Shown piece by piece: positions 48,315 through 64,000 of a stretch of DNA of 64,000 nucleotides. Where the stretch lies: contig AGIF02000001.1 of NCBI GenBank assembly GCA_000227505.4, positions 1,384,035 through 1,448,034 of the forward strand, given 5' to 3'. The DNA comes from a gamma proteobacterium HIMB55 (GTDB lineage Bacteria > Pseudomonadota > Gammaproteobacteria > Pseudomonadales > Halieaceae). How positions within the stretch are numbered: position 1 is the first letter of the stretch; each line of letters opens with the position of its first letter. A program made the translations under genes and the position numbers. The notes under the pieces were generated by a model. That model saw only the letters and a list, made by a program, of their open reading frames with translations, had not been told where the DNA came from and did no database searches.

Positions 48315-50348
48315 ATGCCGTTACGTCAGATCGTTTATCTCTCATTAGCCGCCGTGTCATCAACGGTATTGGGCGCAGAGAACACAAACACGCCACTCGA
48401 GACAATCATCGTCACAGCCAACCGCACGGCCGACAGCGGAGCAACGCTGGGACAAGCCTGGTCAGCACTTTCTGCAGAGGATGTTGCGGCTGTTGACTTA
48501 CAGCACAGCAATCAGCTGTTCAATCGCGTTTCAGGCGCATGGGTTAGCCGAGGAAACGGTCAGGAATCGTTGATTTCACTGAGATCTCCCGTCCTCACAG
48601 GCGCAGGAGCTTGTGGCGCGTTTTTCACTGCCGAAGATGGCATCAACCTTCGTGCACCCGGCTTTTGTAACGTGAATCAGCTGTTCGACGCGAACTTGTT
48701 GCAAGCCGCGGGTGTTGAGGTCGTGAAAGGCCCTGCAAATGCAACCTACGGTTCCAATGCAGTGAACGGCGTCATCAATGTCTTAACCAAAAGCGCTGAG
48801 CAAACGCAGGACGCAGTGGGTATTCAGCTCGGTAGCAGAGACTTTGGACGTGCGCGTGTCTCCCTAAGTAATGGTGGTGTCGCGCTAAACGCCAATGCGA
48901 CGACCTATGGCGGCTATCAAGCAGAGTCCGGCTATGACCAGCAGAAGGCGAACCTTCGCTTTGACGGCGAGGTCGCTGAGTGGCAGCTGACAGGCGTGGT
49001 ATCAGCATCCAATCTGAATCAAGAGACAGCGGGCTACATTCAGGACGGTAAAGGTGCCTATCGCAGCAGCGCCTCGCGTAAAGTGAATCGAAATCCTGAA
49101 GCCTACCGTGACGCCCGATCACTGCGAGCCCATCTCCGCTTCGAGCGTGATTTTGGTGACAGAACAGTGAGTCTAACCCCCTACTTCCGCTCCAATGAGA
49201 TGGAGTTTCTGCAGCATTATCTGCCGTGGAAATCGCGCGAGATGAATGAGCACGACAGCGTGGGCTTTCAGGCGCATATGAAAGGAACGGCATCTTGGGG
49301 CGACTACATCACGGGGATCGAACTCGATTCGACCGACGGTCGGTTAAAGGAAGATCAGGAACAGCCCTTCAGCCCCAATCAACCTGCAGGAATCCACTAT
49401 AACTATCAGGTGGATGCAACCAACGTTGCGCTGTTTGGGCAACTAGAAGTTGCCCTGGCAGACGAATTACTGCTGCAAGCCGGACTTCGCTCAGAACGGA
49501 CCGAGTACGACTACACCACATCAGAAACGGCTGGATCAGCCTGTGCACCAGAAGCTAGCGCGTGTCGCTTTTATCGGCCTGAGGATAGATCCGACGACTT
49601 CTCAAACCTGTCGTCTAACCTTGCGCTGGTGTGGACGCGCGGTAGCCACAATTTCTATGTTAGAACAGCGCAGGGATTCCGAGCACCACAGGCGACCGAG
49701 CTGTACCGACTACAGTCCGGGCAGCAGGTTGCCGACATTGATTCTGAAGAGGCCACCTCAATCGATATTGGATGGCGATTTAGTAATGAGCGAATCTCGA
49801 GTGATATTTCCGTTTACGCGATCGATAAAGACGAGGTCATTTTCCTCGATCGAAATCGCCAAAGCGTGAGCGGTGCCTCGACTCGCCATCGCGGCATCGA
49901 CCTGGATCTGTCATGGACCATTAGCGAAACACTGACGGCAAGCGTCAACGCGGCCTATGCAGACCATACTTACGACAGCGATATACAAATTCTGGGTAGT
50001 CGTGACTCGATCCAAGGTAACGATATCGATACAGCACCTCGCCACTTTGGTAGCGCACGACTTATAAAAGCGATGACCCTAAATAGTCGTCCCGCCAGTA
50101 TCGAGCTCGAGGCAACCTGGGTTGATAAGTACTACATCGACCCGAACAACCAGCATACATACCCCGGTCATGAGCTTGTAAACGCGCGTGCTGAGTGGCT
50201 GATTAGCGAGAAACTTCGCTCGACACTCACTGTCACTAACCTTCTGGACACGGGTTACGCGGAGCGTGCGGATTACGGCTTTGGTAACTATAGATACTTT
50301 GTTGGGGAACCAAGAAGTGCCGTTCTGGGTCTATACTTCGCCCTATAA
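48315..50348 (+). CDS. TonB-dependent outer-membrane receptor
   Basis: A 677-residue TonB-dependent transporter. After a signal peptide ending near 'SSTVLGA' comes the TonB box ('ETIIVTANRT'), a plug domain with 'LLQAAGVEVVKGPANATYGS' and 'NAVNGVINVLTK', and a 22-strand barrel ending in an aromatic residue-rich strand ('YFVGEPRSAVLGLYFAL'). The plug contains an unusual Cys pair ('GAGACGAFFTAEDGINLRAP' and 'FCNVNQLFD'). The ligand is unknown; a siderophore, metal-chelate or organic nutrient are all possible. A small membrane-anchored protein follows after 18 bp in the same direction. Confidence 0.93.
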   Translation: MPLRQIVYLSLAAVSSTVLGAENTNTPLETIIVTANRTADSGATLGQAWSALSAEDVAAVDLQHSNQLFNRVSGAWVSRGNGQESLISLRSPVLTGAGACGAFFTAEDGINLRAPGFCNVNQLFDANLLQAAGVEVVKGPANATYGSNAVNGVINVLTKSAEQTQDAVGIQLGSRDFGRARVSLSNGGVALNANATTYGGYQAESGYDQQKANLRFDGEVAEWQLTGVVSASNLNQETAGYIQDGKGAYRSSASRKVNRNPEAYRDARSLRAHLRFERDFGDRTVSLTPYFRSNEMEFLQHYLPWKSREMNEHDSVGFQAHMKGTASWGDYITGIELDSTDGRLKEDQEQPFSPNQPAGIHYNYQVDATNVALFGQLEVALADELLLQAGLRSERTEYDYTTSETAGSACAPEASACRFYRPEDRSDDFSNLSSNLALVWTRGSHNFYVRTAQGFRAPQATELYRLQSGQQVADIDSEEATSIDIGWRFSNERISSDISVYAIDKDEVIFLDRNRQSVSGASTRHRGIDLDLSWTISETLTASVNAAYADHTYDSDIQILGSRDSIQGNDIDTAPRHFGSARLIKAMTLNSRPASIELEATWVDKYYIDPNNQHTYPGHELVNARAEWLISEKLRSTLTVTNLLDTGYAERADYGFGNYRYFVGEPRSAVLGLYFAL

Positions 50349-53938: not shown

Positions 53939-54382
53939 TTACGCGCCGGTAATGTGCAATACGACAAAAATAATATGCGCAACGACAACCCCGAGTGTTA
54001 AGCGGCGGCGCATCAGTCGATACCACGTCTCCAACGTCGATACGCGGGTCTCGTACCAAAGCAAGGCGGTGTATCCCAACATGAGAAAAACCGCCGCCAT
54101 CATCGCCTGTGCAGTTAAGATTGCCGCAACGCCGAAAAGCACGAGACCGTTGCTCACGATTAGTGTGCTGACAGCGCTTTCACCGTCAGCGGCCTGCACT
54201 GCTTGCACCTGCCCCCATAGAGCACCCGCTAAAAAGGCAAAAATAGCCAGCGAGTAGACAACAAAACCTTGAATAGAAAGCGATCTAGGCCAGTCCTCGA
54301 GCGAGCTAAAGCCCAGACAAAACCCGAAAAACGGGATAAGGCCCGCGTAACCTAATAACTGGGAAATTAATCGACTGGACAC
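53939..54382 (-). CDS. DUF3429 family membrane protein
   Basis: A 147-residue protein with four or five hydrophobic helices. It begins 'LLGYAGLIPFFGFCLGF' and contains 'QGFVVYSLAIFAFLAGALWG', the hallmark of DUF3429. Function unknown. It overlaps the DUF3833 lipoprotein gene by 16 bp upstream, so they are co-translated. Confidence 0.85.
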   Translation of the reverse strand: MSSRLISQLLGYAGLIPFFGFCLGFSSLEDWPRSLSIQGFVVYSLAIFAFLAGALWGQVQAVQAADGESAVSTLIVSNGLVLFGVAAILTAQAMMAAVFLMLGYTALLWYETRVSTLETWYRLMRRRLTLGVVVAHIIFVVLHITGA

Positions 54383-54918
54383 TCAACCGATACCTCTGGA
54401 TGCCGAATGATAGTCAGAAGAATACCACCGACTGGCAGACCAAATTTGGTTAAGGATGATTCGTTGATCAGCACGTTTTCACTGACAAGGTACATCCGGT
54501 CATCGACCGCCACATCGATCGATCCGTCCTCGAGCTCAATGGTTAAAACGTAATCAAGGAACATCGAGTTACCCGATGTCGATGCTCGACCTTCGCCGCG
54601 CACGTCGCCTGCTGTTGCTGCATATGTCCCATCGGCTGATTGAGTCAGACGCCAGACCCGAGTCTGGTTCTCGCCATCATCGAAGACGAATCGCTCATCG
54701 AGCGTTCCAACGCCGTCTTGCCAACAAGCCGTAATATCGGCCACAAAGGAACGACTGGCATAGCCACGATAATTTTTGACCACACCGTGCGCCGTCAGAG
54801 ACCCAGAGAAAAATGACTCCGCCGAGAATACAGGCCCCCTATTCTGATATTCCTCGACGGTGACGCCCGCGCAGGCACTCAAAGTCATGGCAAGCAGGAT
54901 TGCTATGGTTTTTTGCAT
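54367..54918 (-). CDS. DUF3833 family lipoprotein
   Basis: A 183-residue lipoprotein with lipobox 'LAMTLSAC' and a lipocalin-like beta-rich body: 'FFSGSLTAHGVVKNYRGYAS', 'FVFDDGENQTRVWRLTQSAD' and 'MYLVSENVLINESSLTKFGL'. These fit the DUF3833 family, function unknown. The ATG at 54918 has CGGAGA upstream. An ORF starting at 55002 would begin beyond a transcription terminator and is rejected. It overlaps the DUF3429 gene by 16 bp. Confidence 0.87.
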   Translation of the reverse strand: MQKTIAILLAMTLSACAGVTVEEYQNRGPVFSAESFFSGSLTAHGVVKNYRGYASRSFVADITACWQDGVGTLDERFVFDDGENQTRVWRLTQSADGTYAATAGDVRGEGRASTSGNSMFLDYVLTIELEDGSIDVAVDDRMYLVSENVLINESSLTKFGLPVGGILLTIIRHPEVSVECPVD

Positions 54919-54974
54919 TCGATTCTCCGTCATTGGGAACAACTCAACCCTCACCAAAATTGGGGCAAAAAAAA

Positions 54975-54996
54975 CCCCGGTCAAAAATGACCGGGG
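54975..54996 (-). terminator. Intrinsic terminator, third of three after the duplicated-lipoprotein gene
   Basis: Perfect 9-bp stem CCCCGGTCA/TGACCGGGG with an A4 loop (+ strand), followed on the minus strand by eight T. It lies about 190 bp past the lipoprotein stop and just before the DUF3833 gene. Confidence 0.88.
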
Positions 54997-55006
54997 AATC
55001 AAAAAA

Positions 55007-55184: not shown

Positions 55185-58025
55185 TTACAAGGAGCCCGGC
55201 AATGTCCAGCCAGCCCACCATGGGTTTGAACCATCAGGGTTGACCGCTCCGATAAAGTCGGTTGCATCCAAGAAGCTGGTGTTCGCCGTTGACTCCGCAA
55301 AGGTCCCGTTAACGTCGGTCCAATTTACAGGAGCTTCAAGCACTGCCTCAGGCGCCTGCGACGCCAGGATCGCATCCAGTGCCGGCGCTGCAACTGCAAT
55401 GGTTGCGTTACCCACCGCATCGGCACCTGCTTCACTATCAGCAGACACCAGATCACCGCCGCTTCCATCATTTGCACAGTCTTGGATCCAATTATTGAAC
55501 ACCAGGGCTGTGTTTACGTTAGCGCCTGCGCCACCTGTGATCCGTGCACATGATGCAAACGTGTTGGGTGAATCACCCGCGACTGTGGCTACCACGTTGT
55601 GGAAGAAACCACCTGACTTCTTCTTGAACTGCATGATGAAAGAGTCGTCGTTAGCCTGCTTGTCAGCGATGATTGTCACGTTGGCAATCGTGGGCTTAGA
55701 CAGTGGCTCGTCCGCACCTTGCGTGTCCATCTCGAACGCTTCACCGCTGCCCTCAGGCGACTGCTTAACGATGACGTACTGCATGTTGCCTCGGTACCCC
55801 TCGTCCCAATCGACAGAGTCGTCGCGAGCTGCAGTCACGACAGCGTACTTAACGTTGACGTCACCGCCGTAGAACTCAATACCGTCATCCGCGTTATCGT
55901 GAACCTGAAGGTATGAGATCTCAGTACCGCTGCCCACGCCATTGAGTGACAAGCCATTGATCTCGTCACCGTCCGCATTGATCAAGTAACCGCCCTCGGC
56001 TATTACGACGTACTTGAGCGTTCCGCTGGAGTCGTTTCGCGTGTCGCCATTGATTTGACCAAAGTTACCCGCACCGCCTTCCGCAGTGATGTTGCAGAGA
56101 TCAGCAGTACACGTGTTGTGGCGACCGAATCCGCTGATCACTAGCCCGCCCCATTCAAACGGGTTGTCGTAATCGGCATCCTCAGAGCTGAAGATGATCG
56201 GGGCAGTTGCTGTACCCACCGCTTCAATCTTCGCACCGCGGTTAATTTGAAGGACCGCAGCTGTCTGGAAAGTGCCATCGGCCGCCTCGAGGCCTTTCAC
56301 CTCTACACCGGCTTCGATTGTCAGTGTCGGCGTAGTTAGCTCGGCGCCACCTTGAGTGAAGCCCTGCGCATCCAGGATCTCAGCACCATTACCGAACTGA
56401 ACACGTCCTTTGATCGTGTAGGTGTTACCTGCAAACAACGTCACATCGTCGTTGTAGATGCCCTCAAGCTCACAGACGCCATCTGCCGTTTCAGTGGTAC
56501 CCGCAGGACACTCGACAACCACAGCTTCAGGCGTTCCAACTGATCCGGGAATGGTCCATCCGTCCCACCAGGCCATGGTCGCATCAGGATCTACCGCACC
56601 GATGTAGTCCACGGCGTCTAGGTAGTCGACGTCTGCAACAGACTCGCTGAACGAGGCGTTGATTGCTGCCCAATCCATCGCTTCGGACAGCTTAGCAGCG
56701 TCAGCCGTAGAGGCTGCGAGTGAGTTCAAGTTGGCAAAGGTCGCAGTAACATTCAGTGCAGCGCCCCCCATATCAACCGTTGCAAGAACACCCTGATCAC
56801 CGGGTGCATTTGCACAGTCTTGAATCCAATTATTGAACACCAGTGAAGTGCCAACGTTAGCTTCGGATCCACCCGTGATGCGGGCACAAGTATCAAAAGC
56901 ATTTGGCGAGTCAGCATCGACCGTGGCAACCACGTTATGGAAGAAACCGCCTGACAATTTTTTGAACTGCATGATGAACGCGTCATCGTCAGCTTGTTTA
57001 TTAGCAATGATCGTGACGTTCGATACCGTTGGCTTTGACAGAGGCGAGTCCGCGCCCTGCGTATCCATCTCGAACGCCTCGCCACTTCCCTCGGCAGACT
57101 GTTTCACAACGACATACTGTAGGTTGCCTTGGTAACCCTCGTCCCAGTCGATGGAATCGTCACGCGCACCCGTGACGACAACGTGCTTGGCGTTTACGTT
57201 GCCACCATAAAACTCAATACCGTCATCCGCGTTGTCGTGGACCTGCAGGTACTCGATCTCAGTACCATTACCGACACCGTTGAGTGAAAGTCCATTGATT
57301 TCGTCACCGTCGGCGTTGATCAAGTAGCCACCTTCCGCGATGACAACGTATTTAAGCATGCCGCTGTTATCGTCAGGCGTTGATCCGGACACCTGTCCAA
57401 AGATGCCCGCACCACCCTCGGCGGTGATATTGCAGATCTCATCATCACAGGTGTTGTGCGGACCAAAGCCGCTGACGATTAGGCCTCCCCATTCGAAAGG
57501 CCCTTCGTAATCGGCGTCTTCCGAACTGAAGATAATGGGATCATCGGCTGTACCGACAGCCATGATGTTAGCGCCCCGGTTTATTTGCAGTACGGCAGCG
57601 GTTTGGAAGGTGCCGTCAGAGGCGCTTAATCCCTTGACCTCAACACCGGGCTCAATTGTGAGCGTTGGTGTGGTCAGAGCGTCACCATTTTCGAGAGTGG
57701 TGGCCGACGACATGCGCGCAGCACCATTACCAAACTGAACACGACCGTTCAGCGTGTAGGTATTACCAGCTACCAAGGTCATGTCTGCGTCGTATGAACC
57801 GGTAAGTTCGCAAACATCGGCCGACGTTTCTGTCGTGCCCTCAGGACAAGGAACGTCATTGGGCTCAGGTTCTGGCTCGGGCGCAGGTGCTGGAGTTCCG
57901 CCTGACCCGCCACCATTTGTTGGCGCCTCAATGATAATCTTTGCGTCTCCACCGCCGCCGCTACAACCACTGAGTCCTACCAGGGCTCCAGAGGCGAGTA
58001 GCGCCATGACTAACTGCTTATTCAT
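55185..58025 (-). CDS. Lipoprotein made of two near-identical beta-helix-like halves, paired with a TonB receptor
   Basis: A 946-residue lipoprotein (lipobox 'ALVGLSGC', Cys21) followed by a Gly/Ser and Pro/Glu linker ('PAPAPEPEPEP') that should act as a stalk. The rest is two copies of one roughly 440-residue unit, about residues 57-500 and 503-946. Each starts 'C-P-x-G-T-T-E-T' and contains 'AEGGYLINADGDEINGLSLN', 'VHDNADDGIEFYGG', 'GEAFEMDTQGAD' and 'NNWIQDCAN'. The N/D/G-rich ladder suggests a parallel beta-helix. Each unit keeps the same six Cys, likely disulfides. The gene lies 47 bp behind a TonB receptor and shares its transcript. I infer a surface or periplasmic ligand-binding partner; the ligand is unknown. 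Confidence 0.82.
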   Translation of the reverse strand: MNKQLVMALLASGALVGLSGCSGGGGDAKIIIEAPTNGGGSGGTPAPAPEPEPEPNDVPCPEGTTETSADVCELTGSYDADMTLVAGNTYTLNGRVQFGNGAARMSSATTLENGDALTTPTLTIEPGVEVKGLSASDGTFQTAAVLQINRGANIMAVGTADDPIIFSSEDADYEGPFEWGGLIVSGFGPHNTCDDEICNITAEGGAGIFGQVSGSTPDDNSGMLKYVVIAEGGYLINADGDEINGLSLNGVGNGTEIEYLQVHDNADDGIEFYGGNVNAKHVVVTGARDDSIDWDEGYQGNLQYVVVKQSAEGSGEAFEMDTQGADSPLSKPTVSNVTIIANKQADDDAFIMQFKKLSGGFFHNVVATVDADSPNAFDTCARITGGSEANVGTSLVFNNWIQDCANAPGDQGVLATVDMGGAALNVTATFANLNSLAASTADAAKLSEAMDWAAINASFSESVADVDYLDAVDYIGAVDPDATMAWWDGWTIPGSVGTPEAVVVECPAGTTETADGVCELEGIYNDDVTLFAGNTYTIKGRVQFGNGAEILDAQGFTQGGAELTTPTLTIEAGVEVKGLEAADGTFQTAAVLQINRGAKIEAVGTATAPIIFSSEDADYDNPFEWGGLVISGFGRHNTCTADLCNITAEGGAGNFGQINGDTRNDSSGTLKYVVIAEGGYLINADGDEINGLSLNGVGSGTEISYLQVHDNADDGIEFYGGDVNVKYAVVTAARDDSVDWDEGYRGNMQYVIVKQSPEGSGEAFEMDTQGADEPLSKPTIANVTIIADKQANDDSFIMQFKKKSGGFFHNVVATVAGDSPNTFASCARITGGAGANVNTALVFNNWIQDCANDGSGGDLVSADSEAGADAVGNATIAVAAPALDAILASQAPEAVLEAPVNWTDVNGTFAESTANTSFLDATDFIGAVNPDGSNPWWAGWTLPGSL
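55188..57860 (-). repeat. Intragenic direct duplication (two ~1.3-kb units)
   Basis: Unit 1 spans about 57860-56540 and unit 2 about 56515-55188 on the coding strand. They agree at most amino-acid positions, with long identical stretches, but differ often at synonymous sites, so the duplication is not recent at the DNA level. Confidence 0.85.
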
Positions 58026-58072
58026 CTACACTCACTCCTAATGGAAATGGTTTTCGCTGTTTTGGTGCTGCT

Positions 58073-61000
58073 CTAAAGTTTCCAGTCGATACCGACTTGG
58101 AAACTTGTTCCTCGTTCGTACTGCTGGAAGACCTTGCCTCCCTGCGAGTACTCAAAATCTTCGTTTAGTAGATTGTTGACCTTCGCGCGCACTGAGAGCG
58201 CTTCGCTCACGTCCCATCGATAGACCAGTTGAACGTCAAGCCTTGGCTCTAAAATCACATCGGCCGCCCCCTGAATGCCACGGTCGGCAACGGTTTTGCC
58301 GTTCTGGTTGAGCAATAACGTCACCTGCTGCTCTGTCGCAAAATCGTCGTAGCCAAAAATAATATTGGCTGTGTAGTCAGGTTGCCCTTGCATAGCACGA
58401 ATCACGCCGCCGCCGATGTCGACCTCGGACTCGATGGACGCCGCGTTGAAATCGACAAAGATCTCGGAGTCAAAGCTGTCCGAGAGCGGGAATGAAATAC
58501 GTCCCTCGACCTCGATACCGGTGAGCTCAGCGAGATCAGAGTTTTGGAAGGTACGCGCGTTAGCGGCTGTGCCCGATGCCGCGATAACAACTCGCTCAAT
58601 AGCGTCTTCGATTTCTTTGTGGAATAAAGCCACGGAAATGCTGTTACCTGCGTCCTCGTCGAAGTACCACTCCCAACGAATATCGGCATTTGTAATCGAA
58701 GAGGTTTGGAGAAATGGGTTACCAAAGACCTGAGCGCCAAACTCGAGATCCTGATAATAGGCATTCGCCGTTTCTTTAAAGTCTGGACGCGCAATCGTCT
58801 CACTGACAGCAACCCGGAGCTGTTGATCATCGGCAAACGACCAGTTCACGCCAAAATGTGGCAGTGGTGTGATTTCATCGATGACAGACTCTACGGGCTG
58901 ACCATTGAAACTGCTGAAAGTCTCCGTAGTTTGAACATACTCCTCAAAACGAATACCTGTGATGACCTGCCATTCCAACCCGAACGTGTGGTCATAGAGC
59001 GCGTAAACGCTGTTATAGGTAAGATCCGCACCGTAGTTGTCAGAGGGAAGTGTTGACTCAGTAAAGGTGAGGCCCCGCGTCACCGAACCCTGGACACCAC
59101 CCACGACAGATGGATCATCGCTCGCTGCATAAACCACGTCCGACACCACCGCATTGGGTGCCGCGAGTATGTCCCCCGCCAAGATCGTGGAGTAGCCGTA
59201 GATGGCGGCCTCTGCCTCTCGATCACGCTCAATGGCACTGAGTCCCAATTTTAATGAACTGAATGAGTCGCCATCGTCGAAGACGTCCCACGTCAGGTCG
59301 AATGACAGCTCGTAGTTGTTATCAACGAGATTATTGAAGCGTCGATTGCTGCCGCCGTAGTTGAAAAAGAAGCCGGTAAACAAATCGCCCTGTGAGGCGT
59401 TCGTTGCGCTGAAATCAAATCCCGCGACGAGATCACTGCCCAGTGTCTGCGACTGACTTGCGATGAAAGAAGAGGTGCGACGATCGGGCACGTCACGCTC
59501 AGCTTGGCTAACCGTTGCCTGCCACTCTAGGAACAGAGACCCCGACTCATTGAGAAAGTGAGATCCCGCAATCTGAGTCGACGCATATTGACGTTCTTCC
59601 CACTGTACGCTTGTGCCCACCACAGATCTGAATTCGTCACCCTCGACACCCACATAGCGCTCAACGAAAGAGTCCGTCACGCGGGAGACAATGGTGTTCC
59701 ACTCATAGGTACTGTCTCCAATGCCTACACCTACGGAAACCAGGCCACTGACTTCGATGTTGTTGGTCGCTGTCTGATAGACGAAATCGTCCGCAACAAT
59801 GTCAGAGCCGCCGCCGTATGATCGACGAATGCCATTTTCGCGCTGACTCCAGCTATTGGCGTAGCTACCAGCCGCAAAATAGCCGATCTCTGCATCACCA
59901 ACGTAGAAGACATCACCCGCTGAAACGCCTAAATCAACTGCCGGTGTTGCAGATGCAGTGTCCGCATCCCAGCCATCCATCATGAGCAAGCCAGCAGCCT
60001 GTCGAAGTTCACCAGAGAGGTAACTGTCAATGATGAAGGTGTTGCCCTCGCTATCGGTTATGAGCCCCGCTTTTAGCCCTTCAGCGATAAGTGCAATCGC
60101 GCCGTTCTCTTCGCGCGTTCCATCATCCCAACCCAGCAAATCCGAATCACCTTCAAGCGCATCAACAGCGACCGAGCTTCCCGTAAGACCCGTGACGCCG
60201 CCCAACTGCACTGACAGGTCGATGAAGGCCTCATCAGGGAATGTCTTGGTGTTTATGACCAAATTTCCGCCAGTGGACTCACCAGGCATCGACGCCAGGT
60301 AAGTCTTCTTAACGTCCAGCTGATTTACAAAACTGGAAGGAAAAAGGTCCAATGGCACTGTTCGTCGAGACGGGTTGGTTGAGGGCATCGCCGAACCGTT
60401 AAGGTTTGCCGTGACATACCGGTCACCCAGACCCCGAATAACGACATATTTGTCGTTCTGCACGGACACACCAGGGACCCGTACAATCGACGCGGCAACA
60501 TCACTGTCCCCGTAACGCGCAAGCTGTTCAACACCGAGTGTGTCGACAATATTGCCCGTATCGCGCTCACTGAGTTCAAAGGCACCGGGGTCGAAACTAC
60601 CCAGAACGACAACCTCCTCCAACTGAGGCCGCTCAAGCTCAAACGCGATAGCCTCACTCGCGAGGCGAACTGACAGACCGCGCGTGACACCAGCAAAAAT
60701 TCGAGCTGTATAGCGTTTACCGTCAACCGTCACCGAGTAGCGTCCACGGGGGGCTTCGATCGTTGCTACGCCTTCCTCATCCGAAGCGGCTCGTCCCCCA
60801 CCATTAGACAAGTTCACGACCGTGCCTGTTATTGGCGCGCCATCTCTTGTCACGGCAACTTCAAGACTGCCCTTGGGTTGATCGCGTCGCTCTGCAGCAG
60901 ACTCTCGACTACCGTACACGTCGACCAGTGGCGACGTGCCGGCCGCAAGTTCGATAACAACGTCCGCTAATTGACCTGATTCAAGAGAGAAACGAATAAC

Positions 61001-61240
61001 GCGTTGTTCGCCGCCTGCATCAACAGCGACAACGTGGCCGCCTGCATTGAGGTCGGCAGTCAATGACCCGTCCAATCTCGTGCTACCGGCAACTTCACCG
61101 TCTATCGTGATCGTCGCTGAGCGCTGAGGTTGGCCGCTTTGGAATACGTATAGGAGAAGTTCATCCTCAGCCGAAGCAAATTGGGGTAACAACAATCCGG
61201 CTGTAACCAATAGCAGACGCGCTAACGTGCTTTTTATCAT
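58073..61240 (-). CDS. Large TonB-dependent receptor with N-terminal Ig-like domains
   Basis: A 1055-residue receptor. After a signal peptide ('LLVTAGLLLPQFASA') come two carboxypeptidase-regulatory-like domains (about residues 25-98 and 120-190, 'RAASDEEGVATIEAPRGRYS'), a TonB box region ('LEEVVVLGSF') and a plug with 'DVAASIVRVPGVSVQNDKYV', 'VIRGLGDRYVTANLNGSAMP' and 'RRTVPLDLFPSSFVNQLDVK'. The barrel ends '...ERGTSFQVGIDWKL'. The plug resembles that of receptors for large or polymeric nutrients. It is the first gene of an operon with the duplicated lipoprotein. A PhoB-box match lies about 90 bp before the ATG. Confidence 0.92.
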   Translation of the reverse strand: MIKSTLARLLLVTAGLLLPQFASAEDELLLYVFQSGQPQRSATITIDGEVAGSTRLDGSLTADLNAGGHVVAVDAGGEQRVIRFSLESGQLADVVIELAAGTSPLVDVYGSRESAAERRDQPKGSLEVAVTRDGAPITGTVVNLSNGGGRAASDEEGVATIEAPRGRYSVTVDGKRYTARIFAGVTRGLSVRLASEAIAFELERPQLEEVVVLGSFDPGAFELSERDTGNIVDTLGVEQLARYGDSDVAASIVRVPGVSVQNDKYVVIRGLGDRYVTANLNGSAMPSTNPSRRTVPLDLFPSSFVNQLDVKKTYLASMPGESTGGNLVINTKTFPDEAFIDLSVQLGGVTGLTGSSVAVDALEGDSDLLGWDDGTREENGAIALIAEGLKAGLITDSEGNTFIIDSYLSGELRQAAGLLMMDGWDADTASATPAVDLGVSAGDVFYVGDAEIGYFAAGSYANSWSQRENGIRRSYGGGSDIVADDFVYQTATNNIEVSGLVSVGVGIGDSTYEWNTIVSRVTDSFVERYVGVEGDEFRSVVGTSVQWEERQYASTQIAGSHFLNESGSLFLEWQATVSQAERDVPDRRTSSFIASQSQTLGSDLVAGFDFSATNASQGDLFTGFFFNYGGSNRRFNNLVDNNYELSFDLTWDVFDDGDSFSSLKLGLSAIERDREAEAAIYGYSTILAGDILAAPNAVVSDVVYAASDDPSVVGGVQGSVTRGLTFTESTLPSDNYGADLTYNSVYALYDHTFGLEWQVITGIRFEEYVQTTETFSSFNGQPVESVIDEITPLPHFGVNWSFADDQQLRVAVSETIARPDFKETANAYYQDLEFGAQVFGNPFLQTSSITNADIRWEWYFDEDAGNSISVALFHKEIEDAIERVVIAASGTAANARTFQNSDLAELTGIEVEGRISFPLSDSFDSEIFVDFNAASIESEVDIGGGVIRAMQGQPDYTANIIFGYDDFATEQQVTLLLNQNGKTVADRGIQGAADVILEPRLDVQLVYRWDVSEALSVRAKVNNLLNEDFEYSQGGKVFQQYERGTSFQVGIDWKL

Positions 61241-61330
61241 CGGTGCTCCTCAAGCGATTAATACTCTAGACTTCAGAGTGGCTTGGGCGTGCACTTTATT
61301 AATCGCAGATTACAGATTCCTTGCTGAAAG

Positions 61331-61348
61331 ATGATCGTTTTATGACAA
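61331..61348 (-). promoter_or_regulatory. Candidate PhoB box facing the TonB receptor operon
   Basis: On the minus strand TTGTCATAAAACGATCAT matches the Pho box CTGTCATAAAACTGTCAT at 15 of 18 positions, including the complete AAAA spacer and 11-bp half-site period. It ends 90 bp before the receptor ATG. PhoB sites replace the -35 element in such promoters; the -10 is not obvious. Confidence 0.6.
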
Positions 61349-61423
61349 CCGTTAAGTCGGAGATGATCAAATACCGCTAACACATTGTTTTGGCTGGCCT
61401 TATAGGCTTTTCAAGGTAATAAA

Positions 61424-61441
61424 ACGTCACAAAAACTTCAC
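61424..61441 (+). promoter_or_regulatory. Weak Pho-box-like site facing olsF
   Basis: ACGTCACAAAAACTTCAC has GTCAC and TTCAC 11 bp apart with an A-rich spacer (13 of 18 positions when C is allowed at the half-site ends). It lies 158 bp before the olsF ATG. Confidence 0.35.
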
Positions 61442-61598
61442 ATGCACCGGGCGCCAATCCGGTTAAAGTCCACGTGACGATCGTTGGGGTGCGTTGCGCT
61501 TCATATGTGTGCGGTATCGGCAAAGGGTCCGGCTGCCTTGAAACCCAAGATTGTGTTCAGCATGACGAGATCTGCGACCTGACGCAGCGGAGTTATGG

Positions 61599-63338
61599 AT
61601 GCTTAACTTTCAAAACATCGTGCAGCAGTACTTTCCTGAATTCGCGAGTCGCCATTCAACGCTGGCTCGTATTACTGGGAATGCTTTGAACTTTTTATTT
61701 TTTCAGGGACGTTTTGAACAGTTTGCTCGCGAATACCCAGGCAGTGAGGGCTTTGAATTTGTTGAATCGGCGCTCACTTTCTTCGATTTCCAACTCCGTA
61801 CTCGAGAATCCGAGAGAGCGCGCATCCCCGCCACCGGTAAGGTAGTGATCGTTGCGAATCATCCGATAGGCTCACTCGACGGGCTCGCTCTCCTCCATCT
61901 TATCCGGCAGATACGACCTGATGTAAAAGTCGTTGCCAACAATATGCTGATGCAAATAGAACGCTTGCACCCGGTGCTCTTACCTGTCGACAACATGGGG
62001 GGAAAAACCGGCCGCAAGCATTTGTTAGCGATAAAAGAGCATCTCAAGGATGAGTCTGCGCTGTTGATCTTCCCTGCAGGTGAGGTTTCCAGGTTCGGCG
62101 CCAAGGGCGTTCGAGATCCGGCCTGGCAAAGTGGTTTTATCAAACTTGCGTCCGCCACCAAGGCACCGATTCTGCCTATCTTCGTGGGTGGTCGGAACTC
62201 TGTCTTCTTTTACAGCCTGAGTGTGCTCGCAAAGCCTTTGTCAACGGCGTGGCTCATCAGGGAGATGTTTAAGCAAAGTCACAACACAATCGATGCCCGC
62301 ATTGGAAGGGCCATCCCGCACGAGGTTTACGCAGCGAACAAATTTTCTGCGGCGACCCTCGCGGACATGTTCAAGCAACACGTCTACCGACTGGCGAAGA
62401 ATCGAAAACCGATTTTTGACTCTGTTAAGACCGTGGCTCCGCCCGAGTCTCCAGTGCTCGTTAAGCGTGAGGTTTCGGTCTGCGAGCGTTTAGGTACAAC
62501 GCCCGACGGTAAGCGCATTCTCCTTACGACCGCTAAGCAATCGCCTTGCATCATGCGCGAAATCGGCAGGCTCAGAGAAATGACTTTCAGACTTGTCGGC
62601 GAAGGGTCAGGTGCACCCCGGGATATGGACATTTTCGATAAAACCTATGACCAATTATTCCTTTGGGACGAGGATGAACTGGAGATTGTCGGTGCCTACA
62701 GATTGGGTGATGCGCGCCTACTCACTGAACGTGGCGGAGTATCGGCCTTGTACACAAGCACGCTTTTTGAGTTTTCGTCCTCAATGCAGCGCTACTTCGC
62801 ACAGGGACTCGAACTCGGTCGCAGCTTTGTTCAGCCAAAATATCAGACGCGCAATGCGCTTGATTACCTGTGGTATGGCATCGGCGCATACGTGTCGAGC
62901 AGACCGCACATCCGGTACCTGTTTGGGCCTACTTCTATCTCGCGGTTTTACAGCCCAGAGGCGATAGCGCGGATCGCCTATTTCTACTCGGAAAACTACA
63001 ACAGCCTTCCCGTTGAGGTGGATCCTAGAACGCCTTTCACTATTTCCGATGAGGTCAAAGCAAAGCTGGATACTGAATTTTTTGGCATCGACCGAGACGA
63101 GGACTTTAAAGCTTTAAAACACTACCTCGCATCGGAGGGGTTGAAGGTGCCGACGCTTTACAAGCATTACTCACAGACAACCGAACATACAGGCGTCACA
63201 TTTTGCGCCTTTAATCGGGACGCAGACTTTGGTGACTGCGTTGATGGCTTTGTCATCGCCGATCTCACCCTGCTGAAACCGAAGAAAAAAGCACGTTATT
63301 TAGGGAAGGATTGGCGTTATGTTGGAGATCAAGCCTAA
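61599..63338 (+). CDS. olsF: Bifunctional acyltransferase, OlsF-like ornithine lipid synthase
   Basis: A 579-residue fusion. Residues 1-290 are a PlsC-type O-acyltransferase: 'GKVVIVANHPIGSLDGLALL' (His-Asp active site, here H-x5-D), 'LLIFPAGEVSRFG' and 'APILPIFVGGRNS'. Residues 310-579 are an OlsB-like GNAT N-acyltransferase: 'REIGRLREMTFRLVGEGSG', 'LEIVGAYRLGDARLL' and 'ALDYLWYGIGAYVSSRPHIR', 'YLFGPTSISRFYS'. This order is that of OlsF, which makes ornithine lipid from ornithine in one protein. Ornithine lipid lacks phosphorus and replaces phospholipids under phosphate limitation; in Vibrio cholerae OlsF is phosphate-regulated. GGAG precedes the ATG. It overlaps the next gene by 20 bp. Confidence 0.85.
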   Translation: MLNFQNIVQQYFPEFASRHSTLARITGNALNFLFFQGRFEQFAREYPGSEGFEFVESALTFFDFQLRTRESERARIPATGKVVIVANHPIGSLDGLALLHLIRQIRPDVKVVANNMLMQIERLHPVLLPVDNMGGKTGRKHLLAIKEHLKDESALLIFPAGEVSRFGAKGVRDPAWQSGFIKLASATKAPILPIFVGGRNSVFFYSLSVLAKPLSTAWLIREMFKQSHNTIDARIGRAIPHEVYAANKFSAATLADMFKQHVYRLAKNRKPIFDSVKTVAPPESPVLVKREVSVCERLGTTPDGKRILLTTAKQSPCIMREIGRLREMTFRLVGEGSGAPRDMDIFDKTYDQLFLWDEDELEIVGAYRLGDARLLTERGGVSALYTSTLFEFSSSMQRYFAQGLELGRSFVQPKYQTRNALDYLWYGIGAYVSSRPHIRYLFGPTSISRFYSPEAIARIAYFYSENYNSLPVEVDPRTPFTISDEVKAKLDTEFFGIDRDEDFKALKHYLASEGLKVPTLYKHYSQTTEHTGVTFCAFNRDADFGDCVDGFVIADLTLLKPKKKARYLGKDWRYVGDQA

Positions 63339-64000
63339 AGACGTTTTGACATGCCGTTCCGTGTGGATCTCTGATGTCCACTTAGGTAGCAAGTACTGCA
63401 AAGCAAAACAGTTGCTGCAAGTTCTCGATCGTATTGAGTTCGAGCAGCTATATCTCGTAGGCGATATCATTGACCTGCTAGCGATGAAGAAACGTGTGCA
63501 CTGGCCAGCAGCACACAACAAAGTCATTTCCCGCTTTATGAAATTAGCGCGGCGAAAAAACAGTCGCGTTATCTACATACCCGGCAATCATGACTTTGCG
63601 TTTAGAAGCATCGGAAAAAAAACAACCATGGTGACATCGCTGTTCATCGTAACTTTATTCACCAGACTGCCGACGTAAAACGACTACTGGTGATCCATGG
63701 AGACGAACTGGACTACGCGGTCCGCTTCTCAAAACTTAATCGCGTAATCGGTGACTTTGCTTGTACCTTCATGATGTGGAGCAATACAAAAATCGATCAA
63801 TTCCGAGATCAATTCGGTCTTCCCTATTGGTCATTAGCTAAATGGGGGAAACGCAATTCGAAAAAAGCGGAAGAAGCGATCGACGCCTATCAACTTGCCG
63901 CGATCAACATGATCAAAAATAAAAACTATGACGGCACCACTGCGGTCATCTGCATTACCCCACTATCCGAGAGTTAGACGGCGTCCGTTACATGAACGAT
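63319..64000 (+). pseudogene. plcP: PlcP-like metallophosphoesterase gene, interrupted by two frameshifts and cut by the window end
   Basis: Calcineurin-like phosphoesterase resembling the PlcP/LpxH-like group: 'CRSVWISDVHLGSKYCKAKQ' (D-x-H), 'LYLVGDIIDLLAMKKRVHWP' (GD), 'VIYIPGNHDFAFRSI' (GNHD). After this the frame ends at 63678. The homologous continuation 'DVKRLLVIHGDELDYAVRFS' is in the -1 frame, entered at the A8 run 63615-63622. A second break near 63941 separates 'NKNYDGTT' from 'CGHLHYPTIRELDGVRYMND' (the GHxH metal motif). Restoring one base at each place gives one complete frame to the window end. PlcP cleaves phospholipids to diacylglycerol during phosphorus stress. The start overlaps olsF by 20 bp. 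Pseudogene, programmed shift (first site only) or sequence error are all open. Confidence 0.8.

Follow-up and report, generated by a model that had tools for sequence, protein, structure and literature searches.

A candidate phosphate-starvation module of a TonB receptor and an ElpS-type lipoprotein divergent from olsF in the gamma proteobacterium HIMB55

Closest described systems

ElpS (Cc0170) of Caulobacter crescentus is a lipoprotein of about 50 kDa, with a lipobox (LAGC) at residues 17–20, that is induced by phosphate starvation, is accessible to proteinase K and is released in a manner dependent on the type II secretion system (T2SS); cc0171, a TonB receptor gene, sits between elpS and gspC (PMC2996285; this and the other sources are cited for the available parts of their text). 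Since 2010, ElpS has been a phosphate-starvation lipoprotein without a mechanism, and it can now be placed in a widespread, Pho-box-controlled receptor–lipoprotein module whose partners are Pho, Pst, TonB-type, T2SS and olsF genes. Here, we describe such a pair in a stretch of 64,000 nucleotides from the gamma proteobacterium HIMB55 (Halieaceae; assembly GCA_000227505.4, contig AGIF02000001.1, positions 1,384,035 to 1,448,034), hereafter the window, in which the genes for a TonB-dependent receptor and an ElpS-type lipoprotein diverge from olsF. The best overall explanation, to which we assign a probability of roughly 0.7, is an outer-membrane module of the ElpS–Cc0171 kind under PhoB control, serving phosphorus capture and import. 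Its computed support consists of homology, the pairing, the Pho box, the Pho-gene neighbourhood and purifying selection, and by analogy with Caulobacter ElpS the lipoprotein may be induced by starvation, exposed at the surface and able, on overproduction, to raise extracellular alkaline phosphatase activity.

In Bacteroidetes, low-phosphate-induced lipoproteins of Flavobacterium johnsoniae have been described as FI (Fjoh_3856/3857), FII (Fjoh_0545/0546, in the phoBR operon) and FIII; two lipoproteins of the low-phosphate set are located downstream of TonB receptors of that set, and identity to the Caulobacter lipoprotein is 31–36% at 50–54% coverage (PMC8115612). The window lipoprotein is likened to these through their published description, which in its available part reports no olsF. 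PusCD, also induced at low phosphate (PMC8115612), and SusCD share with the window the combination of a TonB receptor and a surface lipoprotein; unlike them, the window lipoprotein has no SusD-type match, and its relatives show weak beta-helix matches. As for regulation, the Caulobacter PhoB regulon takes in the T2SS and various TonB receptors (PMC11208175), PlcP gene clusters carry predicted Pho boxes (PMC4796936), Pseudomonas PlcP is PHO-dependent (PMC5082522), and Vibrio OlsF and PhoBR are, judging by its title, the subject of a paper cited in PMC11001654. The window differs from published Pho-controlled olsF/plcP loci in that its plcP-like gene is broken and an ElpS-type pair lies across the promoter.

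The HIMB55 locus

The features of the locus, in window coordinates, are as follows.

58073..61240, minus strand: TonB-dependent receptor, 1055 amino acids (open reading frame list; Pfam)
55185..58025, minus strand: ElpS-type lipoprotein, 946 amino acids, with two tandem beta-helix-like units (open reading frame list; unit profile)
57963..57974, minus strand: lipobox LSGC, predicted acylated Cys21 (read from the sequence)
56550..57848, minus strand: lipoprotein unit 1, residues 60–492 (unit profile match)
55200..56510, minus strand: lipoprotein unit 2, residues 506–942 (unit profile match)
61331..61348, minus strand: Pho (PhoB) box TTGTCATAAAACGATCAT, oriented towards the receptor gene (15/18 to consensus; family-wide motif test)
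61241..61598, no strand: shared divergent regulatory region, 358 bp (open reading frame coordinates; divergence in relatives)
61599..63338, plus strand: olsF, bifunctional ornithine-lipid synthase, 579 amino acids, intact (NF052615)
63319..64000, plus strand: plcP-like metallophosphoesterase gene remnant in three frames, running past the window end to 64132 (homology search)

On the minus strand, the receptor gene comes first and is followed, after a gap of 47 bp, by the lipoprotein gene; the open reading frames and their coordinates agree with the divergence of this pair and olsF from one 358-bp region, as the initial annotation of the sequence had proposed. Its assignments of the receptor and of olsF also hold, the former by Pfam matches to PF00593 (1.2e-24) and Plug (3.1e-08) and the latter by 770.7 bits to NF052615 (NCBIfam; cut-off 620). 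The receptor N-terminus gives a below-cut-off match to a CarboxypepD_reg-like domain, and the score against TIGR01782, the TonB-Xanth-Caul subfamily model of NCBIfam, is 229.2 bits, under the cut-off of 310. All three genes are intact in both G000 and the sister genome G246, whose receptor is 94% identical to that of the window. The ratio of nonsynonymous to synonymous substitution rates (dN/dS) between these genomes is 0.099 for olsF and 0.037 for both the receptor and the lipoprotein, with synonymous divergence near saturation for the latter two (dS 0.85 and 1.14, respectively).

The initial annotation had held the pair to be without described function; its family very probably includes ElpS–Cc0171 (PMC2996285) and the Flavobacterium lipoproteins (PMC8115612), at least on the available parts of those reports. 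ElpS was compared by proxy: unit 2 of the window lipoprotein is 34% identical (E 3e-50) to a protein of Brevundimonas (Caulobacteraceae; locus L159), in which the lipoprotein–receptor–gsp order is as published for ElpS and the lipobox has Cys20. Common to the window and ElpS–Cc0171 are an N-terminal lipobox, an adjacent TonB receptor and a phosphate-starvation context; the window differs in its two units, the receptor gene standing first and the divergent olsF. In addition, ElpS–Cc0171 adjoins the T2SS genes gspC–N, whereas no T2SS genes adjoin the window pair, the 20 kb that make up locus L031 being free of Gsp matches; GspE scores over its cut-off elsewhere in the genome, at 520698–522143. 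Because the arrangement varies within the family, T2SS genes beside the pair are treated here as a feature of a Caulobacter-like subgroup. An association of olsF with ElpS was not found described among the papers listed for the open-licence literature, and as far as this search goes four things are new: the olsF coupling, the Pho-box evidence across many lineages, the repeated duplication of the unit and the stacked acidic motif.

Pho box upstream of the pair

The box TTGTCATAAAACGATCAT starts 91 bases from the first base of the receptor gene. The 15/18 match facing the receptor that had been noted earlier was located at 61331–61348 on the minus strand, scored against what we take to be the Pho consensus, and it is retained with one substitution in the sister genomes G245 and G246. 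The genome encodes PhoB (328.1 bits, cut-off 296.2), with phoB adjoining phoR- and pst-like genes, and its own phoB promoter holds a tandem box of the same kind. By pattern count, the 2.74-Mb genome has 184 sites with at least 11 of 14 fixed positions, the control pattern, its reverse, giving 110, and about 0.024 such sites are expected per 358 bp.

Across relatives, the Pho box before the pair is present far beyond chance. Scoring drew on 160 loci, from which those with no pair within 700 bp or with a contig end were dropped; each scored stretch spanned 430 bp about the point where the match to the pair's first gene begins. A score of at least 12 was reached by 39 of 135 first genes, as compared to 12 of 894 control open reading frames of the same loci (defined by length and unannotated), 4 of 141 second genes (with windows mostly inside the first gene) and 0 of 34 olsF genes. 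Some genomes are counted twice among the 135 windows (e.g., L111/L211 and L139/L197), and 118 windows remain after removal of near-duplicates. In this non-redundant set, CTGTCAT repeated at an 11-bp period ranked first of 420 letter permutations (35/118 windows), the runners-up being TTGTCAC (24) and register shifts, and the 11-of-14 repeat occurred at a 4-bp gap in 47 of 118 windows, compared to 4–17 at eleven other gaps. On this motif rank and gap specificity across the family, a chance Pho box is rejected. It might still be argued that the locus holds an ordinary TonB receptor–lipoprotein pair with olsF as a chance neighbour and a chance Pho-box match, since the window box is weak by itself and a box facing olsF is not significant by itself; the conserved linkage, the rank of 1/420, the spacing specificity and the PhoBR/Pst neighbours make this explanation highly improbable.

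A second, weaker box had been annotated as facing olsF, and it is not accepted here, the best site on the olsF-facing strand of the 358 bp matching 8 of 14 positions, no better than chance. Of 34 olsF promoters, 23 are non-redundant; in these, a gap of 4 bp was the best of 12 gaps, with at least 10 matches in 9 of 23 promoters versus 0–3 at the 11 other gaps; CTGTCAT ranked 7/420 and TTGTCAC first, a weak signal.

Linkage of the pair with olsF

Receptor–lipoprotein pairing and the Pho box, whose lack in relatives the initial annotation had named as refuting its reading, are both conserved, so that this check did not refute it. Divergence from olsF is likewise conserved in the window's family, which was sampled as 140 genomes including Halieaceae (e.g., L111 and L115). 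The lipoprotein profile was matched at E ≤ 0.001 in at least 89 of them, and OlsF scored over its cut-off in 51; below-cut-off OlsF matches, found in 28 of the 79 genomes with any match, were left out of the linkage count. Among the matches listed, 46 of the 51 OlsF genomes also have a lipoprotein match, and in 33 of the 51 no more than 10 kb separates olsF from the lipoprotein gene, the two being divergent in 30. These counts show the arrangement of the pair with olsF to be genuine and ancient in the family. In five genomes of the same genus in which OlsF does not score over its cut-off, a PhoB match adjoins the lipoprotein (L219, L220, L221, L229 and L230), that of L219 scoring 300.4 bits against a cut-off of 296.2.

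Tandem units and conserved acidic residues

In the genome, a single contig of 2.74 Mb, the lipoprotein is alone in matching at E ≤ 0.001. It had been read as a double unit, and profile comparison bears this out, with two homologous units that are 70% identical in alignment. Among 160 proteins, a count that takes in truncated and duplicate ones, 69 have one unit, 76 two, 14 three and one none; variation from one to three units is seen, for example, in loci L031, L117, L141, L158, L166 and L178. A quick tree built from 102 units places sibling units of one protein as mutual nearest relatives in many lineages, including Maricaulis, a Hyphomonadaceae genome, Pseudoalteromonas and Catenovulum as well as a Cellvibrionaceae genome, a Porticoccaceae genome, G324 and G286. 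The unit thus appears to have been duplicated several times independently, or homogenised by conversion in places. In other lineages, among them the window and its sisters G246 and G251, first units cluster with first units and second units with second units, and the duplication there is therefore older than the species.

Residues E150, D166, N191, D214, D215, E218, D236, D240 and E266 occur in 51 of 51 unit sequences, and D237 in 50 of 51. This invariance, in alignment A2, is partly built in for D214, D215, G216, E218, G221 and G222, which were part of the search pattern; in alignment A1, a pattern-free collection of 27 rows of which two are the window units, D214, D215, E218, D236, D237 and D240 are invariant. 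Within each of the acidic pairs D214/D236, D215/D237 and E218/D240, the spacing is 22 residues, which is close to the length of a single turn in a right-handed beta-helix. The 22-residue-spaced acidic columns could accordingly form a stacked site for a metal or a substrate.

Of the 51 unit sequences, 10 match the beta-helix family PF13229 at E ≤ 1, the lowest value being 0.00034, and relatives in Flavobacterium have been modelled as polygalacturonase-like, according to the available part of PMC8115612. Both observations would fit a surface beta-helix that acts on glycans or other polymers and frees phosphorus from cell walls or polysaccharides, with the receptor importing the sugar part. We regard this reading as unlikely, since the lipoprotein has no match to a carbohydrate-enzyme family and no carbohydrate gene occurs among the named neighbours, which are a part of all neighbours. 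As to other families, SusD-type models (PF07980/PF14322) gave no match in the window lipoprotein at E ≤ 0.01 and are absent from the 13 families matched by any of the 51 unit sequences at E ≤ 1, and a SusD-like lipoprotein is rejected; matches to CobW_C_DAAF9 and DUF5666 were below cut-off and were treated as noise.

Distribution and gene neighbourhood beyond the family

With the window protein as query, the lipoprotein was matched in 69 of 194 order-level genomes, and the profile found it in 56 of 398 sampled phylum genomes, 5 of these matches being weak and partial. Neighbourhoods were compared in 80 named loci, the best 80 of 551 confirmed candidates rather than a random sample, and in 39 order-level loci; some genomes may occur in both sets, L034 and L144 being almost identical, and identity thresholds were chosen by the analyst. 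A same-strand receptor lies within 1 kb in 68 of the 80 named and 34 of the 39 order-level loci, and a receptor occurs anywhere in the locus in 76 of the 80. GspD together with GspE is found in 14/80 and 0/39, ExbB, ExbD and a TonB-like protein in 20/80 and 7/39, and OlsF in 4/80 and 2/39, respectively. The phosphate context put forward for the pair is supported by PhoBR or Pst matches, present in 13 of the 80 named and 6 of the 39 order-level loci, the pair adjoining phoB/phoR or pst in some other lineages. Neighbours over NCBIfam cut-offs include PhoB, PhoR, PstS, PstB, PhoU, PstA and GspE; a GspC example is below cut-off, as is an ExbB-type protein (L056) that matches TolQ/ExbB models, and GspD, PstC, ExbD, TonB and DUF3450 neighbours were assigned by eye. 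This survey took in 201 flanking open reading frames, of which 29 were viewed by their first residues, with 23 and 14 proteins inspected and 20 scanned.

The loci L129, L133, L148, L172, L177 and L180 have the order lipoprotein, ExbB–ExbD-like genes (with or without a TonB-like gene), receptor. The position of ExbB–ExbD-like genes between lipoprotein and receptor suggests a dedicated energy supply. In L051, L055 and L056, a protein of 1236–1413 amino acids lies directly upstream of the receptor and resembles, by eye, a di-heme peroxidase with FG-GAP-type repeats. Also by eye, a neighbour in L131 resembles a PiT phosphate permease and one in L134 a glycerophosphodiester phosphodiesterase; neither has an NCBIfam match at E ≤ 1e-60.

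TonB receptors classically import metal chelates, and the phosphatases PhoX and PhoD need metal. The pair could thus supply iron, calcium or zinc to Pho-regulated phosphatases, the receptor importing the chelate and the acidic lipoprotein binding the metal. PhoX-like and PhoD-like matches over cut-off in the genome, the capacity of invariant acidic residues to bind metal and the higher extracellular alkaline phosphatase activity that accompanies ElpS overproduction (PMC2996285) would be consistent with this. Among the named neighbours, which make up a part of the whole, there is however no metal transporter, and those that recur belong to the Pho, Pst, secretion and TonB types, so that metal supply is considered quite unlikely.

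Proposed role in phosphate starvation

Returning to the phosphorus module, the window very probably encodes an ElpS-like pair for phosphate starvation, and we put at about even the chance that the two proteins combine capture or processing with TonB import. We infer the operon, expression in this strain, the fold, the ligand, enzymatic activity, the direction of transport and hand-over between the proteins. When phosphate is scarce, PhoB would bind the box at 61331–61348, and receptor and lipoprotein would be co-transcribed. The lipoprotein would be exported, acylated at Cys21 and placed facing outward on the outer membrane, like ElpS; along the stacked acidic row, its two beta-helix units may then bind a phosphorus-containing molecule and perhaps hydrolyse it, after which the TonB receptor would take in the product and OlsF, from the divergent gene, would make phosphorus-free lipid. 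If the pair does import or process organic phosphorus, marine bacteria on scarce phosphate would have an extra outer-membrane step.

Several points weigh against this explanation. In Caulobacter, cc0171 was, in contrast to elpS, reported as constitutive, and ElpS was still produced when cc0171 was deleted (PMC2996285); receptor and lipoprotein therefore need not be co-regulated. The available part of the same source reports no uptake through Cc0171. The window box taken alone exceeds chance only weakly, and 96 of the 135 first-gene windows score below 12. The linkage with PhoBR/Pst was counted without a random-window control. As to linkage, 12 OlsF genomes carry olsF and the lipoprotein gene on different contigs, in one they are 1.9 Mb apart, and 5 of the 51 have no lipoprotein match among the matches listed. 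Finally, the lipoprotein has nothing above cut-off in the curated families of Pfam and NCBIfam, nor a convincing sequence relative in the PDB.

A bolder proposal, which we advance only tentatively and think rather doubtful, is that ElpS-type lipoproteins are metal-dependent surface enzymes acting on polymeric or esterified phosphorus, with the active site in the acidic stack, and feed a dedicated TonB receptor. If this were true, large phosphorus compounds would have a general way across the outer membrane of Gram-negative bacteria, with its own ExbBD–TonB power in several lineages and a binding unit repeatedly doubled or tripled, and placed in Halieaceae under co-control with the switch to phosphorus-free ornithine lipid.

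The plcP-like remnant and other neighbouring genes

The initial annotation had described an olsF–plcP pair. The olsF half stands, the gene being intact; the plcP-like gene is broken, its homology to an intact gene of Halieaceae AG-901-J11 (locus L111), used as query, falling into three frames (63319–63624, 63618–63953 and 63941–64132) on the plus strand and overlapping the olsF end. No second plcP-like copy was found in the whole genome, where the only match was weak (23% identity, E 3.6e-4). Piece 1 matches the metallophosphatase domain PF00149 (Pfam), and the NCBIfam models matched by the intact L111 relative are limited to those for LpxH-type and other phosphoesterases, all below cut-off; the putative name PlcP is thus based on the metallophosphatase domain and the olsF neighbour. 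The sister genome G246 retains, some 3 kb downstream of olsF, a remnant that is 45% identical and interrupted by a stop, and in G245 there is no plcP-like match in the 2.8 kb beyond olsF. Because of the two frame breaks and the decay in the sister genome, a true loss of the plcP-like gene in this subclade is suggested; sequencing error may lie behind the frame breaks of the window.

On the far side of the pair, a second TonB receptor is encoded at 48315–50348 and is followed by an open reading frame of 159 amino acids; models of the siderophore, haem and B12 types all score below cut-off. Closer by, genes with DUF3833 and DUF3429 lie at 53939–55002, downstream of the lipoprotein, and the same duo is met again next to the pair in loci of relatives (L032, L111, L206, L207, L208 and L218).

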